From the IMG/VR virus record IMGVR_UViG_3300037247_001036, positions 1 to 48,409 of that record: DNA of 48,409 nucleotides, one strand, 5' to 3'. The translations under genes were made by a program, and so were the position numbers. The notes beneath the pieces were generated by a model that did not search any database, was not told the DNA's origin, and saw only the letters and a program-made list of their open reading frames with translations. The DNA is from a virus. Of the stretch, positions 5,622 through 47,595 are shown piece after piece. Numbering within the stretch: position 1 is the first letter of the stretch; each line of letters opens with the position of its first letter.

Positions 5622-6001
5622 CCGCCGCCTCCTTGGCACTCCATGTTCGCAGGCATGGCGTCGCACCGGCAGTCGGGCTCGCCTGGCTTACGGAAGACTA
5701 TACCCCGAGCCCTTCCTTGGCGCTCCCAACCCTGAGCGACGAGTGAGTTGATCTCCTCGATATCGTCACGCAGCCCCTTGCGAGCGCTCTCAGGTACACT
5801 GTCCTGGCTCAAGTCGGTTAAGCTTTTGCGCTCGCGGAAGTCGAGCGTAAAGGACTTGCCGTCCTTTGCAAGGTAGATGTAGGTGGGGCGGGAGTTGAAG
5901 GCCACGCATAGGTCGCCCTGGCAATGGACGAAGAAGGGATCGACAGGCATCGAGCTCATGATTGGGCAGATGCGGCCTTTCATTTCAACTTGTGTCGTCA
6001 T
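5618..6001 (-). CDS. Cys-rich hypothetical protein
   Basis: Encodes 127 residues from the ATG at 6001, with AGGAG 7 bases upstream. A longer in-frame extension exists but lies over the protease gene and looks non-coding. Cysteines occur as CPIM, HCQGDLC and, near the end, CRCDAM with a final Cys. This could be a metal site. A beta-rich middle (TYIYLAKDGKSFTLDFRE) precedes a helix. It follows the cysteine protease gene with a 17-base overlap. Function unknown. Confidence 0.6.
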   Translation of the reverse strand: MTTQVEMKGRICPIMSSMPVDPFFVHCQGDLCVAFNSRPTYIYLAKDGKSFTLDFRERKSLTDLSQDSVPESARKGLRDDIEEINSLVAQGWERQGRARGIVFRKPGEPDCRCDAMPANMECQGGGG

Positions 6002-6551
6002 CTTCTGTCTCCTTGTTAGGTGTGAACGGCGGCCATCGCCAGCCGATGAGGCGCCAAAGGCCGTTGGTTGTGCTGAGCATGGCGACCCACTCGTAGGGCG
6101 CGTCCTTGAAGGGGTACACCCAAGGGATGATGTTGTCCAGTACCATTGTGCCGGTCTCAGTGAAGGCGAGCAGCACCATGTGGTCGCAAGTGACACCACC
6201 GTACCGCGCCGAAGGTATCTTGCATAGGGCGGGGCGTAAGCCGGCTATGTCAACGCCGAGCTTGGCGAGCGTTGCTCGCTTGGTGAGGGTGGCATCGTCG
6301 CAGTCGAAGGAAGGAAGGTCGTCGATGTTGAAGTTGGGAAGGCTGATGTCGTAGGCGTTCCAGACATCAGTTACGTCCGCTCGGTAGCCAAGGTCGTTGA
6401 CGGCGCGGTTTACTTCTTCAAGCTGGATCATTGACACTGGGGGTGAACCGGCGACGAACTCGGTCGCGGATTGGTCCTCATGGCGCGAGACGAAATCGAG
6501 CCATTGAGGGGGCGAAGGAAGGCGAGGGCCGATTGGGATATTGATAGTCAT
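5985..6551 (-). CDS. Transglutaminase-like cysteine protease (BTLCP-like)
   Basis: Encodes 188 residues. The pattern FDCDD (Cys84), CDHMVLL (His124) and TMVLDN (Asp139) gives a Cys-His-Asp triad. Its spacing matches bacterial transglutaminase-like cysteine proteinases (BTLCP/peptidase C93 type). There is no signal peptide, so it should act in the host cytoplasm, or in the virion if packaged. Its position in the early block argues for processing or inactivating a host or phage protein soon after infection. The ATG overlaps the upstream stop (ATGA). The family call rests on the triad and the DNx strand; substrate unknown. Confidence 0.65.
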   Translation of the reverse strand: MTINIPIGPRLPSPPQWLDFVSRHEDQSATEFVAGSPPVSMIQLEEVNRAVNDLGYRADVTDVWNAYDISLPNFNIDDLPSFDCDDATLTKRATLAKLGVDIAGLRPALCKIPSARYGGVTCDHMVLLAFTETGTMVLDNIIPWVYPFKDAPYEWVAMLSTTNGLWRLIGWRWPPFTPNKETEDDDTS

Positions 6552-6718
6552 TTCTTGCTCCGTTCTTCTGTGAACTCGATGTAAGTACGTATTGCTATCA
6601 TCATTGGCCTTGCGTATAGGTTGCGAATTACGTGGTCGCAGAGGCCAAGCTCGTTGCGTAGGTAGGTGTTTAGTGCCTCGCGGACGGCGATTAGAGCTTG
6701 GGGATTGAGCTTAGCCAC
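6548..6718 (-). CDS. Small hypothetical helical protein
   Basis: Encodes 56 residues from a GTG at 6718 with GGAG 8 bases upstream. A longer in-frame start would run through the 14-bp hairpin at 6741-6776 and is less likely. The sequence is helical (QALIAVREALNTYLRNELG; MMIAIRTYIEFTEE). Its TGA overlaps the protease start. Function unknown. Confidence 0.55.
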   Translation of the reverse strand: MAKLNPQALIAVREALNTYLRNELGLCDHVIRNLYARPMMIAIRTYIEFTEERSKK

Positions 6719-6740
6719 TTTACGACTCCGTTCAAGGCCC

Positions 6741-6776
6741 CTTGTGGGGGTGGCTGGTGCTCGCCACCCCCACAAG
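6741..6776 (-). terminator. 14-bp perfect hairpin between early genes (terminator or mRNA stabiliser)
   Basis: CTTGTGGGGGTGGC at 6741-6754 pairs perfectly with 6763-6776 around an 8-base loop. It lies in a 72-base gap just after a leftward stop codon. No U-tract follows on the minus strand. It may be a leaky terminator, a processing site or a 3' end stabiliser rather than a full intrinsic terminator. Confidence 0.6.
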
Positions 6777-6790
6777 AAAGCCAAGTCCTG

Positions 6791-7159
6791 CTAAGCCGCC
6801 GGCTCTTCAGGCGCCTGTGTGTTCTCGACCTCGACTGTTCCGGTCGCCTCGGCACCCTCGTCCTGAGTGCCTGTGTCGGCCTCGGTTGGCTCGGCGCCCG
6901 GCTCGACTTTGCTGCCGGTGTCGGGATCGGTTGCAGTCTCCTCTGGTTCCTTCGCCTCCTTGGGCGCGTTAAAGGCCATGATCGAGAGGTCTTCCGGGTG
7001 ACTTCGGCAGATGCCCGATGCGGTAAGTGTCCTCGCGGCATCTTCCACATTGCGGAAATCGGCGGCAGCTTGGGGATCATCGGTGAGAGCTCCTGAGACC
7101 CCGAGGTAGAGGGTGTCTTCAAGGAACTCGGGCGTGGTTTGGATACGGTATAAGGTCAC
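6791..7159 (-). CDS. Protein with acidic disordered C-terminal tail
   Basis: Encodes 122 residues from a GTG at 7159 with AGGAG 6 bases upstream. Residues 1-65 look folded (TLYRIQTTPEFLEDTLYLG; FRNVEDAARTLTASG). The rest is a low-complexity tail of Glu, Thr, Pro, Ala and Gly, strongly acidic and lacking positive charge. DNA-mimic or flexible-tether functions are possible but unproven. The hairpin at 6741-6776 follows its stop. Confidence 0.6.
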   Translation of the reverse strand: MTLYRIQTTPEFLEDTLYLGVSGALTDDPQAAADFRNVEDAARTLTASGICRSHPEDLSIMAFNAPKEAKEPEETATDPDTGSKVEPGAEPTEADTGTQDEGAEATGTVEVENTQAPEEPAA

Positions 7160-41126: not shown

Positions 41127-41355
41127 TTTTTACCTTGGGGTCGGCCTCCAGTCGCTTACAGTGGTCCCAGATCAGCTCGCCCAGTGTCGGAAGACTGACT
41201 CCCCATTTCTCGGCCAGCCTGATGAATGTCACTCCACTGGAATGGATTTCATAGCACAGCAACTCGCCGAAGCTGTTGCCGCAGCCTGTTGGGTTGCTGG
41301 CGTACTGTTCCTCGATCAAGCGGCGAAATCGCCCTATGTGTGTTTCCTCAGTCAT
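41104..41355 (-). CDS. Small protein with helix-turn-helix-like segment
   Basis: Encodes 83 residues. VTFIRLAEKWGVSLPTLGEL reads like a helix-turn-helix; two Cys lie before it (TGCGNSFGELLC). ATGACTGA overlaps the upstream stop. Its 3' end overlaps the late block by 23 bases, convergently. A DNA-binding role is inferred. Confidence 0.6.
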   Translation of the reverse strand: MTEETHIGRFRRLIEEQYASNPTGCGNSFGELLCYEIHSSGVTFIRLAEKWGVSLPTLGELIWDHCKRLEADPKVKTSVAPAH

Positions 41356-42550
41356 CCTTCTTATCCTTCAGTGGTCTGTAGAATTTGCCCTCGGGCCTAC
41401 TTACGACCTCGATATACCCTGCCTGGACGGCCGAGTTAACTGCCTCCGAAAACTCCTTCAAGTTCATAATCGGCATACAGTGCCGCCAGAGGGTCTGGTG
41501 TTCAATGTTCTTGTATGCACGGATGTAGGCGAGCAGTTCCTTCACTGGCCGCGCCATCCCTGTCACGCCAATCGAGTGGAAGACCATCTGCATATCTTCC
41601 TCAAGCCCTGTTACTAGGCCGTTGGCGGAGGCGAGGTCTTCCTCCTCGATCACCAACTCATCTCTTTTCGCCGCCGCCATGACCATCGCGAGCTTGTGTA
41701 TGTGGGTCTGTTTGCGAGCGATATAGCCGCCGAAGCGGTCGGACGCTAAGTGTTCGGGTCTGTGTCCCCAATGGTGCTCATACCAAGCGGTGCCCCACGC
41801 CTTCGCGTCAGGGGTTAATTCGTATTCACCAATCAAGTCACTGATCTGATCTAGGTCCTCGACGAGTTTCTTCCCCCTCTCTACGAACTCGTCGCCCTCT
41901 ACAACATCGGCGGGGTAGGGCACGAGTTGGCGCTTGGCACTAGCATAGACAAAGACGATACGGGATGTCAGGCCGCCGCCGACGAGTGACTCGGGGAAGT
42001 TGTCACGGAGCCAGGCCGGTGTGGTGGCGCCAATTATATTTATCCAGGGGTTAACGATCTCATCGCTCCCCTGCGTCTTAGTCGCCTTCCGCCACACCTC
42101 CTTCTGTCCATCCCATAGGGATACGAGTACGTCGACGAGGTCTCTATCGTCAGGCTTCAAAAAGGTGCCGAGTTCCGACACAGCGCAAGTGATGCAGGAC
42201 ATGGGTAGGAACTCGTCTCCGTAGGGCATGTCCATACGAGCATCGACGAGAGCCTTTGTGAGAGCTTGCCAAGTGAGACTTTGGGGGCCGAATTTGATCC
42301 CCTCGATCTCTTCGAGTAACTTAAGTCCAATGCGGATGGAGGTCGACTTAGTGGCAATTCCTGCTGGAGCCACGAACACGATATAGAAGTTAGGCGTCCA
42401 CTGGAAATATCTTTGGTCTATCCACACTCGGCGCCGGAGGGCCCCCGCAATGGTGGAGACTCCCACCCAGAAATGGAATAGGTCTGGAGCTTCGCTGTGT
42501 TGCGTATAGATTTGGTATTCCCGTAGCCAGTTGTCAAAATTCCGGGCCAA
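41348..42550 (-). CDS. DUF3987-like ATPase (replicative helicase/primase-like)
   Basis: Encodes 400 residues. FHFWVGVSTIAGALRRRVWI and a P-loop-like PAGIATKST (62-70), then SLTWQALTKAL, match the DUF3987 type of phage protein usually held to be the replicative helicase. The P-loop is atypical: Thr replaces the usual Gly before Lys. The only start after the upstream stop is a TTG at 42550, with a poor ribosome site; it lies in frame with that stop. This is the sole helicase-like gene found, so it is probably the fork helicase. Primase activity is not visible. Confidence 0.6.
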   Translation of the reverse strand: MARNFDNWLREYQIYTQHSEAPDLFHFWVGVSTIAGALRRRVWIDQRYFQWTPNFYIVFVAPAGIATKSTSIRIGLKLLEEIEGIKFGPQSLTWQALTKALVDARMDMPYGDEFLPMSCITCAVSELGTFLKPDDRDLVDVLVSLWDGQKEVWRKATKTQGSDEIVNPWINIIGATTPAWLRDNFPESLVGGGLTSRIVFVYASAKRQLVPYPADVVEGDEFVERGKKLVEDLDQISDLIGEYELTPDAKAWGTAWYEHHWGHRPEHLASDRFGGYIARKQTHIHKLAMVMAAAKRDELVIEEEDLASANGLVTGLEEDMQMVFHSIGVTGMARPVKELLAYIRAYKNIEHQTLWRHCMPIMNLKEFSEAVNSAVQAGYIEVVSRPEGKFYRPLKDKKDD

Positions 42551-42562
42551 AGTACATGGCCC

Positions 42563-42928
42563 TTACCAGGGTTCTCCGTCCAAGGGCATCTTGTGTTTCA
42601 ACGCCGGCCTGCTCTCGAATATAGGCATGTTGTGCGCCTCAGCAAACACGTATTCACGCCTCACACCTTCGGACGTTGCCCATCCCTCGATCTTCACAAT
42701 CACGAAGTCCTTTGCTCCTCGAAGCATGGGGAGAGTTTGTCTTTCCCAAAAGGCATAGTCGGTGGGAAAGCCATACTTGACAGCAAGAGGGTGGAAGTGC
42801 AGCACCGGAGAATAGATTATCTCGTCGTTGAGTAGAAAGATAGACGCCACTCGCATTACGTCGCTGTAGCGGTGCTGTCGAACCTTTGGGTCTTCGTGAG
42901 TGTAGGGGGATGCGAGGTAGGTATACAT
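42563..42928 (-). CDS. DUF1937-like protein (nucleoside deoxyribosyltransferase-like)
   Basis: Encodes 121 residues. MYTYLASPYTHEDPKVRQHR, then SPVLHFHPLA and TDYAFWE, and KIEGWATSEGVRREY match DUF1937, a small Rossmann-like family related to nucleoside 2-deoxyribosyltransferases. Its work on nucleotides is plausible in a replication cluster. AAAAGGAGG lies 5 bases ahead of the ATG. Confidence 0.7.
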   Translation of the reverse strand: MYTYLASPYTHEDPKVRQHRYSDVMRVASIFLLNDEIIYSPVLHFHPLAVKYGFPTDYAFWERQTLPMLRGAKDFVIVKIEGWATSEGVRREYVFAEAHNMPIFESRPALKHKMPLDGEPW

Positions 42929-42945: not shown

Positions 42946-42980
42946 AACCATGGGGATATATGTTCTACATCCCGCTGGTT
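42946..42980 (-). terminator. Terminator-like hairpin after the polymerase C-terminal gene
   Basis: Read leftward, AACCAGCGGGAT (42980-42969) pairs with ATCCCCATGGTT (42957-42946) except for two central mismatches. Only a short TTT follows, so termination may be partial. It starts at the stop codon of the polymerase gene. It is similar to hairpins at 13432-13470 and 23526-23558. Confidence 0.5.
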
Positions 42981-43747
42981 CACCATTCAACTCCCACCAC
43001 ATCCCCCCACGACTTCCGACTAGTGGAGAGTTTCCAGGGGATGACGAGGGGGTCAGGGTAGGGCACGGTTATGTGAAGTTCATCGCGTACCAGCTTCCGC
43101 TCTCTGTCTCTATTCATCGGCCACTGGACGACGATGCTGTCGTGGACTTGGAGGAGTATGTCTGTCCACTCGACGTTGTGGTAGACGTTGAGGGCACCCT
43201 TATCGCATACCATTGCGACAGTTGATTGTGGTATCCAGGCAAGGGCTTGGGGCAGAAGCCCCTCCATGTAGTCGTAGTATACGCGCCTTGCGCCGAAGGC
43301 GTTGTGGACTGTGCGAGTTTCGGCTAGTTCGCGCTCTATCGACTCCATACGGCGCTTTATAGCAGGGTGGAGGCCGAACCACCGCTGTTGGAAACGCTCA
43401 GCCTCGACTATGAGCCAACCGAGCGTGAGAGCCATCGTCTTGGCGGAGCCCCCGTAGTCGGTCAGATGGACTGCGCGCTTACAGTCATGATAGATGCCGC
43501 CAGGGCGGTCGGTAGCCTTCAACGCCTCGTCACTCATGCCCTTCGTTTTCTCAGGAAATACATCCCTGGCGTTCTTAATGTGCAACTTGAGGCCGCTCCT
43601 GAACGCCGCCTTGAGGTCCTCGTCGCCGGCGTCCCATGCAACGACCTGGGCGTCGGCGCCGGAGAGGTCGCACTCGGCTATGACACACCCAGGGTCGGGG
43701 ACGAAGAAGCGGCGGATGTTAGGCAACTCAATCGTCTGGGCTACCAT
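42980..43747 (-). CDS. polA: DNA polymerase I family, C-terminal (catalytic palm/fingers) part, split gene
   Basis: Encodes 255 residues. It starts exactly where family A polymerases resume: LPNIRRFFVPDPG, then motif A CDLSGADAQ (Asp27), motif B DCKRAVHLTDYGG (Lys90, Tyr98) and motif C VHDS (Asp203). It lacks the exonuclease and thumb, which are in the gene at 43901-45625. GGAGG lies 7 bases ahead of the ATG at 43747. At the position four before motif-B Tyr, where E. coli has Phe762, this enzyme has His94. It must assemble with the other half to be active, unless a recombination event has split a single gene recently. Confidence 0.8.
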   Translation of the reverse strand: MVAQTIELPNIRRFFVPDPGCVIAECDLSGADAQVVAWDAGDEDLKAAFRSGLKLHIKNARDVFPEKTKGMSDEALKATDRPGGIYHDCKRAVHLTDYGGSAKTMALTLGWLIVEAERFQQRWFGLHPAIKRRMESIERELAETRTVHNAFGARRVYYDYMEGLLPQALAWIPQSTVAMVCDKGALNVYHNVEWTDILLQVHDSIVVQWPMNRDRERKLVRDELHITVPYPDPLVIPWKLSTSRKSWGDVVGVEW

Positions 43748-43901
43748 CCCGCGCCTCCAGCTTCTCCAGCCTCTCAGTCAGTGCTTCCAATATAGGAAGC
43801 ATCCAGAATATTATGCCGATGGAGTGAGGAATAGTCGTCCCTAGTCTACGCGCCAAGGCATCTACCCGGTCTCTGTTCTCTTGCGAAATCTTAAAGGGCA
43901 T
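43728..43901 (-). CDS. 57-residue protein encoded between the polymerase halves
   Basis: Encodes 57 residues. The start overlaps the N-terminal polymerase stop (TGATG), and the end overlaps the C-terminal polymerase start by 20 bases. The sequence is a helix (ISQENRDRVDALARRLGTT), a hydrophobic segment (PHSIGIIFWMLPILEAL) and a charged helix (TERLEKLEARDG). It is not a homing endonuclease or intein. It could bridge the polymerase halves or be an inserted unrelated gene. Confidence 0.65.
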   Translation of the reverse strand: MPFKISQENRDRVDALARRLGTTIPHSIGIIFWMLPILEALTERLEKLEARDGSPDD

Positions 43902-45625
43902 CACTCGTCCTCCGTCCCCTTAGGCAAATTCTGCAAGTTCGTCCCGCGCCCAAAGGCGTTCTCACTACTCGACCACCGATAGGTCTCGGTGCCGCCGATG
44001 TTATACGAGCAACGCATCCTGTCATCCGGGTCGAGCTTGGCTAGGCAGAAGTTGTTGAGGAAGATACCGAGGCTACGGTATTCCTGCAACATCTCGACGA
44101 TGGGAGTTAGGACTGGCTCGATGCGCTTGATACGTTCGAGAGCCTCGTCATTCATCGTCCGCGCGCGAGTCTTGCGGTGCTTGTACTCACTTACACAAAA
44201 TATGTCATAGAATAACTCGCATTGCTGCATAGGACTTCGCCACCAGGAGGATTTCTTCTCCTGCGGAGGGAATACGTCCTGCGGCACTACGATGTCGAAG
44301 CGGCGGTCGTATTCCCCTATGACGGCGGACAACTCCATCGTGACCTCAGCGCGAACTTGCAAGTCCTGCCGGACGCCGTGGAGCATCATGTCGAGGACCA
44401 TAGGGAATTGGTCCATGAGGAACTTGTAGGTCTCTTCCTGGCCCTGGGATTTGATGGCTCCTTCGAGAACGTAGCTGATCTCGTGGGTTGACACCGCATC
44501 CTTGCAGTTGTATCTCCACCGCTGCTCCGCATCGACCTTGAGTTCCCTTATTCCTTTCCCTTCATCCTTCCAGTAACGGTGGTATTCGCAGCAGATGGAA
44601 CTCAGCCGCCCAAGGTCCTTTGGCACGCCTGGCCAACAGGCGTGGTAGGCGAGCATGGTGTCCATCCAGCACGTGGGGATGAAACACCAATAGCGGGCGA
44701 AGTACTGGGCATCGTAGAGGTAGTTCTGACCCACGACTTGGATGTTGGGGTGAGTGAGGAGCCTGCGGCAATACTGTATAATCGCTATCTCGGCCTCCAA
44801 GGACCAATAATGCTCGCGAGGGTCCTCGGCGCCCATGAAGGGGATGCAAATCGCACTGCGATCCGACGTGGCTATCCCTATGCAGTCGATGTGCCCTTGA
44901 AACGTCTCTAAGTCCACTGCGAGGCGGCGGGGACCGGACTCAAGTTCGGCATACGTGGCCGCCAGGCAGTCCACGACAGCTTCGAAAGTGGGTCTCACCA
45001 CGAATTGATAGTCGGGCTCCCCCCAATCGTCGTTAAGGGCCTTTGGCAGCCGTTGTTTTAAGTCATGCCTGATGTCATAGGTGTATTGCCATTGGCGCAT
45101 GGCTGCGGCGGGGTGGATGGTGGGCATGAGGGGGAAGCCGCCCATGTCGTCGCGGCAATAGAGTTGCGAGCCGCGACGGGCGATGATGCCAGTGGGGATG
45201 CGGCGGTAGTTGTCGTTATCGACTCCGAAGAAGTCGTCTGTGAGTGCCCACAGAGTGTAGTTGCCTAGGCCGATTACGACCTTAGGTTTGACCTCTAGCA
45301 ATTGCTGCCGCAGTTTGTTGACCCCCGCCTTCACGTTGTCGCGAGGGAACAGCCGCCTTACCTCTTCCTTCCCCTCCTTCTTCGCTACCACTGTGGGATA
45401 GAAGAACTGCCACATATCGTTGCCCGGCGGCTGTTCGCTTATGACGTTCGAGCAGAACACCTCGGTGCGATCTATACCAGCGGCGGCAAGGAGCTGGTCG
45501 AGTAGCTTGCCACTCTGGCCGACGAAAGGCTTTTGCTTGCCCGCCTCCTCCCTGCCGTAGCTTTCCCCCACGACTGCTATGTCGGCGTCGTGGGGGCCGC
45601 TGGTGCCGTGGAATAGGTCAGGCAC
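43901..45625 (-). CDS. polA: Uracil-DNA glycosylase-like domain fused to DNA polymerase I N-terminal part (exonuclease and thumb)
   Basis: Encodes 574 residues from a GTG at 45625, just after the preceding TGA. Residues about 1-200 look like a family 4/5 uracil-DNA glycosylase (DIAVVGESYGREEAG, QKPFVGQSGKLLDQLL; later MPTIHPAAAM). The 3'-5' exonuclease follows: AVDLET near 237, GQNYLYDAQYF near 300, CKDAVSTHE near 377. The thumb ends in TETYRWSSS and GTNLQNLPKG. It stops where motif A should begin; the remainder is at 42980-43747. The glycosylase fold may mark or cut uracil. Confidence 0.8.
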   Translation of the reverse strand: MPDLFHGTSGPHDADIAVVGESYGREEAGKQKPFVGQSGKLLDQLLAAAGIDRTEVFCSNVISEQPPGNDMWQFFYPTVVAKKEGKEEVRRLFPRDNVKAGVNKLRQQLLEVKPKVVIGLGNYTLWALTDDFFGVDNDNYRRIPTGIIARRGSQLYCRDDMGGFPLMPTIHPAAAMRQWQYTYDIRHDLKQRLPKALNDDWGEPDYQFVVRPTFEAVVDCLAATYAELESGPRRLAVDLETFQGHIDCIGIATSDRSAICIPFMGAEDPREHYWSLEAEIAIIQYCRRLLTHPNIQVVGQNYLYDAQYFARYWCFIPTCWMDTMLAYHACWPGVPKDLGRLSSICCEYHRYWKDEGKGIRELKVDAEQRWRYNCKDAVSTHEISYVLEGAIKSQGQEETYKFLMDQFPMVLDMMLHGVRQDLQVRAEVTMELSAVIGEYDRRFDIVVPQDVFPPQEKKSSWWRSPMQQCELFYDIFCVSEYKHRKTRARTMNDEALERIKRIEPVLTPIVEMLQEYRSLGIFLNNFCLAKLDPDDRMRCSYNIGGTETYRWSSSENAFGRGTNLQNLPKGTEDE

Positions 45626-46155: not shown

Positions 46156-46312
46156 CTTCATCTCCTAGAACCTTGCCGGTGCGAAGAAAATGCTCGTACT
46201 TCTTCGCTCGCTTCAAGGTCTCCTCGTCGGTCTCGATTAGTCCTGTAGTCTTTGAGTTGCTGAAACTGCGCGCCAGCTCTAATGCGCGAAGGCGTAGCTC
46301 TTCAGTATTCAT
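46145..46312 (-). CDS. 55-residue helical protein
   Basis: Encodes 55 residues. NTEELRLRALELARSFSNSK then ETLKRAKKYEHFLRTGKVLG resembles the neighbour at 45934-46155 in layout: a first helix and then a YE[HA][FY][IL]R[TA]GK helix end. A duplication is likely. The ATG overlaps the methyltransferase stop (TAATG). Function unknown. Confidence 0.6.
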   Translation of the reverse strand: MNTEELRLRALELARSFSNSKTTGLIETDEETLKRAKKYEHFLRTGKVLGDEDER

Positions 46313-47595
46313 TAGTCGTCTCCTATAATATGGCGAAGCGCGAGCTTATACGCTTCATCGTCGATTTCAATTCCAGTAGCAATCATGTCACATTCCTTCG
46401 CTGCGGCAAAGATGGTGCCAGAGCCGCAACAAGGGTCGAGCACTTTGTCACCGGGGACGCAGGAGTATGATAGTAACTTGGTATAGAGTGCTACCGGCTT
46501 CTGTGCGGAGTAAACCCTGTCACGCAAGTTGGGCACTTCGATCACGTCAGAGTAGAGGCCGCCGAGGGGCTTGTTGCCCTTGGTGGCGAACATGATTAAC
46601 TCGTAGCCGCGGCGGAAGCCCCGAGTGCCAATAGGGGCGTGGGCGGTTGTTCCCTTGCTCCAGATGAGGGGTGTGCGGAAGGGGTCCCAGCCGGCGCTCT
46701 CGGCCGTCTTTCGGAGTGTTTGGAAGTAATCAATATCGCAGAACATAAATAAGTGGGCTTCCTTCTTGGCTAGACGGAAACCTGCATAGAATATGTGTTC
46801 CGCAATAGCAGTAGCCACGGCGCCAGTGTCCTCGTAGTTGTGAGAGAGCTTAGCGGCATCCCCAAACTTCTGCGCATCTATACCGTAGGGAGGGTCGGCT
46901 ATGATGCAATCGAAGTTTGGGCGCTTCACCTTCTCCAGTTCCTTGATAAGATCGCCATGGACAAGCGTATGGGGCGACTCCTTACCCACGCCGCGCTTCC
47001 GCAATTCATTATCGAACTCTCCCTGCAGCTTCCTCGTGACGATGTTGAAGGCCTCACGATCGCTTCTTGCCCCTCGAACCTCGGGATCGTCGAGGTGCGG
47101 CGCTAGGATACGAGCGCGGGCGACTTCTTTCTCTTTCGTAATGACTGCGGTGCCGCTGACCTTGGCAAGCTCCCTCGCCGTGTCCTTTACTGTCTGCTCC
47201 GGGTTCCTTGCTTGGCGCAGCGTGTGAAGTTCGTCAATCGCCGCCGCCCGATCCTGCCACGTGAGGTCCTCACGGATAATGTTTTCCTCTAGTTCCGTCT
47301 CGCGCATGTGGAGCCGCCCTCGGTCCTCGACGAGGATGAAGGGGATGCAAGTGGGTTCGAGGACTGTGCCGTCGTGCTCGTAGAGACGCCCCTCTGCGGC
47401 GAGGGAGGTTATTGCGAGGAGGCGGCGATGGCCAGCGACGAGGTAGAGTGCGTTGCCCTCTCTAGTACATACGATAGGGTGCAATAGCCCCTTGGTCGCA
47501 ATGCTCTCGGCTAGGTCCGCGAGTGCCTTCTGGTCGAAAGTCTTGCGCTGCCGGTCGGGGCGGACGACGATTTCATGAAGCGGTGCAGTTCTCAT
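46312..47595 (-). CDS. ParB-like nuclease domain fused to DNA methyltransferase
   Basis: Encodes 427 residues. Residues 1-170 match ParB/Srx-like domains (LADLAESIATKGLLHPIV, VAGHRRLLA, ETELEENIIREDLTWQDRA). The C-terminal half has DPPYG near 235 (methyltransferase motif IV) and then DPCCGSGT near 386 (motif I), an order typical of beta-class N6-adenine/N4-cytosine enzymes. Such fusions are widespread in phages and probably modify phage DNA against host restriction. The target sequence is unknown. Confidence 0.85.
   Translation of the reverse strand: MRTAPLHEIVVRPDRQRKTFDQKALADLAESIATKGLLHPIVCTREGNALYLVAGHRRLLAITSLAAEGRLYEHDGTVLEPTCIPFILVEDRGRLHMRETELEENIIREDLTWQDRAAAIDELHTLRQARNPEQTVKDTARELAKVSGTAVITKEKEVARARILAPHLDDPEVRGARSDREAFNIVTRKLQGEFDNELRKRGVGKESPHTLVHGDLIKELEKVKRPNFDCIIADPPYGIDAQKFGDAAKLSHNYEDTGAVATAIAEHIFYAGFRLAKKEAHLFMFCDIDYFQTLRKTAESAGWDPFRTPLIWSKGTTAHAPIGTRGFRRGYELIMFATKGNKPLGGLYSDVIEVPNLRDRVYSAQKPVALYTKLLSYSCVPGDKVLDPCCGSGTIFAAAKECDMIATGIEIDDEAYKLALRHIIGDD

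Follow-up and report, generated by a model that had tools for sequence, protein, structure and literature searches.

It is very probable that the virus recorded as IMGVR_UViG_3300037247_001036 (IMG/VR) makes one replicative DNA polymerase of family A as two co-translated polypeptides that reassemble, and that the split lies at a recurrent hotspot. The window, by which is meant the whole stretch of 48,409 nt that was analyzed, carries the two parts of the gene on the minus strand with a third ORF between them. A preliminary description of this DNA had reported this arrangement, and all of its coordinates hold.

The N half of the polymerase (43901..45625, minus strand) begins with GTG, encodes 574 aa and ends in GTNLQNLPKGTEDE followed by the stop codon. 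It contains a family 4-like uracil-DNA glycosylase domain, a 3′-5′ exonuclease, the thumb and the first strands of the palm, with Pfam matches to UDG (2e-18), DNA_pol_A_exo1 (2e-6) and DNA_pol_A (4e-4, model positions 33-136). The C half (42980..43747, minus strand), 255 aa beginning MVAQTIELPNIRRFF, holds the remaining palm and the fingers with motifs A, B and C (D27, K90/Y98, H202-D203), and matches DNA_pol_A at model positions 138-357 (5e-18). A family A polymerase domain usually lies on a single polypeptide, which is not part of its homology definition; here the Pfam DNA_pol_A domain is shared out over two ORFs, with the break at positions 136/138. The match to PHROG 17 runs from 476 to 989 for the N half and from 996 to 1196 for the C half, and that to the NCBIfam DNA polymerase I model (NF004397) from 327 to 645 and from 649 to 878. 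Since the N half stops at position 645 of NF004397 and the C half takes up at 649, the break has neither removed nor repeated any part; the C half resumes where a normal polymerase continues, as had been claimed. The N half ends six residues past NLQNLP, and the C half starts seven residues ahead of LPNIRR.

The N and C halves share one reading frame, with five in-frame stop codons between them (TGA, TAG, TAG, TAA, TGA), and therefore neither a single indel or sequencing frameshift nor a single readthrough would join them. The C half has its own ribosome-binding site (43748..43762, minus strand), in which GGAGG at 43758-43754 lies within the interval ORF; the Shine-Dalgarno (SD) energy before the ATG at 43747 is -9.3 kcal/mol. 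At the end of the N half a purine-rich stretch, AAGGGGACGGAGGACG (43906..43921, minus strand), codes for the KGTED tail and is SD-like for the interval gene. Its best anti-SD duplex, -10.2 kcal/mol, beats all background windows in the gene.

Upstream of the polymerase, at 46312-47595 on the minus strand, there is a gene for a ParB N-terminal domain fused to an N6/N4 DNA methyltransferase, which is kept in that place in several relatives. After the polymerase halves, on the same strand, come a DUF1937 (deoxyribosyltransferase-like) gene at 42563-42928 and a DUF3987/primase-like gene at 41348-42550. A link to the aminoadenine (Z) phages was considered and rejected, the polymerase being only distantly DpoZ-like (NF038380, 1e-5, far below the cutoff).

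Relatives were collected by scans of IMG/VR, which gave 12, 80 and 80 loci (the best 80 matches per scan from a family of 450-565 members, and thus no estimate of prevalence), and by tblastn of phage records. After the removal of loci on the same contig there were 141 contigs or records with both parts, including a few near-identical ones (132 different rows). Among these best matches the palm loop is split in 76 of the 141, the window included, and unsplit in 65. The break is in the same loop in all of the split ones. Their N halves end a few residues past NLQN(I/L)PKG, typically with KG(D/T/N)E(E/D) and a stop, and their C halves start from a few to about 30 residues ahead of LPNIRK. The cultured Vibrio phage vB_VspS_VS-ABTNL-3 has a split polymerase with a 184-codon gene between the parts; the unsplit relatives found by tblastn in phage records include MW202489 and Microcystis phage Mel-JY34. 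A scan of genome contigs yielded only four contigs, all from metagenome bins (L175-L178), two of which are split.

Some loci depart from this pattern. A second place of breakage, between exonuclease and thumb, is seen in L004 (Caulobacter phage Kuura), L013, L015, L087/L088 and L183 (MW202554), with about 0.7 kb of other genes at the break in L013 and L015. In L038 (1871-4132) the palm loop is split, and in addition about 660 nt separate the glycosylase domain from the exonuclease part downstream of it, which looks like a third point of fission. L145 and L174 are unsplit, and their genes have a loop of 50-60 residues in frame, which may be a remnant of re-fusion or of earlier cargo.

In the aligned relatives, split and unsplit alike, the catalytic residues (metal-binding aspartates, the lysine and tyrosine of motif B and the HD of motif C) are invariant. 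D27, K90, Y98 and H202-D203 of the C half are unchanged in 15 relatives, and the exonuclease residues D238/E240, D305 and Y372/D376 of the N half in the relatives aligned. For close split pairs the dN/dS values of both halves lie at 0.05-0.16, compared with 0.05-0.2 in unsplit pairs. Taken together, these findings indicate that both halves have been kept as working proteins. They make it scarcely credible that the split comes from faulty assembly or sequencing, or that the gene is a decaying pseudogene. The record of this virus lacks finished status, but 75 more contigs or records, one of them a cultured phage, are broken in the same loop, and five in-frame stops are not the mark of one indel. 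A sequencing frameshift had already been doubted in the preliminary description, rightly on this evidence.

The interval ORF (43728..43901, minus strand) encodes 57 aa from the ATG in TGATG and overlaps the C half by 20 nt, as had been described; an upstream GTG would give 58 aa and an overlap of 4 nt with the N-half stop. Judged from the TGATG, it is apparently translationally coupled to the N half. When the interval was shuffled with its dinucleotides preserved, 10% of the shuffles gave an ORF that started near the stop and reached the C half, and 5% gave one overlapping the stop. Taken alone, the evidence that this ORF is a gene is weaker than that for the split itself. The predicted protein is an orphan and mainly helical. 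No relative of it was found in viral contigs, in phage records or in any of the fetched loci, and there was no match in Pfam, PHROGs, NCBIfam or PDB sequences. Viral metagenomes had been named as the place to look for the halves and for this protein: the halves are present in many contigs, split and unsplit, and the 57-residue protein had no match. A single-sequence AlphaFold model consists of one helix (pLDDT 72, pTM 0.34); a sequence-based guess that the protein is a ribbon-helix-helix DNA-binding protein was dropped in view of this single low-confidence helix.

The intervals of other split genes are more informative. Across 66 distinct loci with a split gene, the N-half stop and the C-half start are between -4 and 2899 nt apart, with a median of 452 nt. 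In 13 of them it is 30 nt or less, which leaves no room for a gene: in L099, which belongs to the window's own sub-clade, TAA is followed directly by ATG, and in L075 stop and start overlap in ATGA. The next start is offset from the N-half stop by -4 in 30 of the 66 loci and by -1 in 11, and an SD energy of -4 kcal/mol or lower precedes the C half in 57. Pfam and PHROGs were used to identify the cargo in 78 interval ORFs. These include dUTPases (11 ORFs), the large chain of ribonucleotide reductase (3), DUF3310, methyltransferases, an RNase T-type exonuclease and a weak Mom-like match. HNH endonucleases are found in the intervals of L010, L025, L032, L059 and L066, and none is present in that of the window; in L005, L009 and L038 the cargo reads as MazG-like from the sequence. 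A dUTPase lies within the split in 30 contigs and elsewhere in two split loci; among 67 unsplit loci only one has it within the fetched flanks. The interval ORFs of L045, L051, L072 and L078 are dUTPase-like with parts of the conserved motifs lost, and are possibly decaying or repurposed cargo. From lineage to lineage, then, the cargo is unrelated, consisting of dUTPases, HNH endonucleases, ribonucleotide reductase or small orphans.

The preliminary description had supposed that the enzyme works as two or three subunits. Separate polypeptides are strongly supported. A three-subunit enzyme, in which the helical 57-residue protein would be a structural bridge between the halves, is very unlikely. 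Its ORF does overlap both halves with its start and its stop and has a good ribosome-binding context, and a predicted helix would suit the role. A bridge is difficult to reconcile, however, with the lack of a homologue in any relative searched, with the gene-free intervals in the same sub-clade and elsewhere, and with intervals that in other lineages hold enzymes with jobs of their own. The 57-residue gene is better regarded as cargo, the present occupant of the junction, which would be dispensable for bridging the halves.

It is more improbable still that a self-splicing intron or a split intein restores one polymerase chain. Group I introns are longer than 154 nt, and the 154-nt interval is thus too short for one; a search of window positions 43400-44300 gave no Rfam match at E ≤ 1. 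The halves end and begin a few residues from the junction with no intein sequence, and an intron would not fit in those relatives whose halves are only 0-4 nt apart. Introns and inteins are nonetheless both known from phage polymerase genes, and an intron was raised by the authors of the phage MEP401 study for their split PolA (PMC10580990). Within the present family an in-frame intein-like insert is found in the unsplit polymerase of L155 (IMG/VR 3300025997_000179, about 6000-6870). It lies elsewhere in the gene, near motif B, between FVHG and NSNYGG.

Reassembly of separate chains agrees with the place of the break. The unsplit polymerase of L040 (802 aa) was modeled with AlphaFold from a 49-row alignment (pLDDT 95.1, pTM 0.92). 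The model, which is of the single-chain form, has the Klenow fold, with a TM-score of about 0.8 to the Klenow and Bst fragments. The break site falls in a 31-residue coil (531-561) that links a palm strand to the short helix ahead of motif A, where confidence is lower at 541-560 (blocks with pLDDT 84 and 82). Since the site is a coil in this model, the cut leaves each secondary structure element whole. In the T4-related Aeromonas phages 25 and 44RR, the family B polymerase is split into gp43A and gp43B, and a review states that the parts co-purify and are active (Petrov et al., 2010, as reviewed in PMC2988022). From the position of the coil and this T4-like precedent, the two halves of the present enzyme would be expected to reassemble non-covalently into an active polymerase.

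The loop has a further property at the level of its codons. In unsplit genes the 36 nt past NLQN have a mean anti-SD pairing of -8.0 kcal/mol compared with -4.65 kcal/mol elsewhere in the gene (Wilcoxon p 5e-10); the corresponding values for split genes are -8.55 and -4.37 kcal/mol. Purine-rich triplets encode the acidic loop, and a gene cut there therefore carries a ribosome-binding site for the next gene. This signal is a correlation, and it could simply reflect which amino acids the loop contains.

A mechanism can be proposed on this basis. The break would have struck a long surface coil of the palm, which runs from NLQN-P-x-G to LPNIRxxF and lies immediately ahead of motif A. The codons of the acidic Gly/Asp/Glu loop (AAR GGN GAY GAR GAR) resemble a ribosome-binding site, and by this inferred Shine-Dalgarno route one stop and one start codon may suffice to make two translatable genes. 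The pieces would stay neighbours in one operon, with stops and starts overlapping or abutting. The junction, flanked by an essential gene on each side, would then be a neutral site that homing endonucleases, dUTPases, reductases and small orphan genes may enter and leave. The chances seem about even that the palm loop is in this way a reversible fission hotspot. The gene would break and rejoin there time and again, since the loop's codons already supply a ribosome-binding site and encode an expendable coil, and the break would be kept as a protected place, between two essential halves, for mobile or metabolic cargo such as a dUTPase, reductase or endonuclease.

The history of the break was followed on a tree of both polymerase parts with the loop left out (LG+G4, a simple model on divergent sequences). 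The window lies within a group of 44 contigs, all of them split (SH-aLRT 97), its nearest rows being L005, L018, L020 and L099. Close relatives with an intact gene and without the small ORF, a case raised in the preliminary description, are not among these nearest rows; intact polymerase genes occur in the clades neighbouring the group. The split label requires 12 changes on the tree, compared with 47.0 when labels are shuffled, and a single split clade is rejected (p-AU 5.14e-7, in a 72-row subset). If fission were irreversible 15 gains would be needed, and a single ancient split would need about 17 re-fusions. A two-rate model (lnL -43.66) was compared with models without re-fusion (-45.71) and without gain (-48.70); the comparison mildly prefers allowing both fission and re-fusion, and in the rooting attempt the outgroup was not monophyletic and the two rates were not separable. 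The change of split state is recurrent, about 12 times, with either direction allowed by the counts.

The close pair L066 and L075 bears on how the splits arose. Their DNA identity is 87% on the N side and 90% on the C side. L075 has an N half with the ending GGAGATAAAGAATGA, and the ATG within that ATGA is the start codon of its C half; in L066 the same ATGA opens a gene of 146 codons for an HNH endonuclease, and the start of the C half lies about 424 nt downstream. Because both genes are split and only that of L066 has the endonuclease, the latter must have entered or left an already split gene, and it did not create that break. The two-polypeptide reading also admits another origin, in which, as has been proposed for nrdA of phage Aeh1, the insertion of a homing endonuclease gene made each split. 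The endonuclease gene would since have disappeared or given way to other genes, and fission through small loop mutations would not be the principal route. We consider this possible but rather unlikely. It would account for the HNH genes in five intervals on different branches of the tree; cargo-free splits are present on several branches, and the one close pair goes against it.

Genes in pieces have been described in other phages. The split polymerase of the Aeromonas phages resembles the present one in being a replicative polymerase encoded by two adjacent genes, which are separated by an endonuclease or by an untranslated interval; it is of family B and known from a few genomes of T4-like myoviruses (PMC2988022), whereas the present polymerase is of family A, has a uracil-glycosylase domain and is split in many lineages with varied cargo. 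The closest case is that of the Methylophilales phages MEP401 and MEP402 (Zobellviridae), in which PolA is split by a small orphan ORF (ORF13-14-15; PMC10580990, OP830906). It too is a family A polymerase whose break falls in the palm ahead of motif A, and a small orphan lies between the parts. The PolA of MEP401, however, belongs to another family without the glycosylase domain, and its break is about 15 residues further on, after IKTLFLSRYGE and before MILNADAKALEW, directly before motif A. The site of the break and the difference in domains point to a separate, parallel event at a neighbouring site. In Aeromonas phage Aeh1 the essential enzyme NrdA is cut by the homing endonuclease gene mobE, and its two chains, according to a review, reassemble to full activity (Friedrich et al., 2007, as reviewed in PMC2988022); that enzyme is a ribonucleotide reductase, whereas in the present case the cargo is often no endonuclease and is sometimes absent. 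Phage MIJ3 has a split PolB with an intein, and other fractured genes carry split inteins and endonucleases; the likeness is a polymerase in two pieces with an HNH gene between them, but there inteins are believed to join the chains (PMC6892783), and the present halves have no intein sequence at either end. A literature search, which covered few subscription journals, found no paper on a palm-loop split in the glycosylase-domain polymerase family. The palm-loop split is a new, widespread and unusually broad variant of genes in pieces.

These findings mean that an essential enzyme can be carried in pieces across whole lineages of viruses. Split enzymes in phages have so far mostly been reported as single curiosities. 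The present family offers scores of genomes with broken or intact genes, about a dozen changes of state and one near-identical pair with the junction occupied or empty, and is thus a natural series for asking how genes break, why the pieces persist and whether they re-fuse. It also serves for asking how two chains form one active site next to a catalytic aspartate. In practice, automatic annotation counts the split polymerase as two partial polymerases, and a naturally split family A polymerase could serve as a tool whose activity depends on the joining of two parts.
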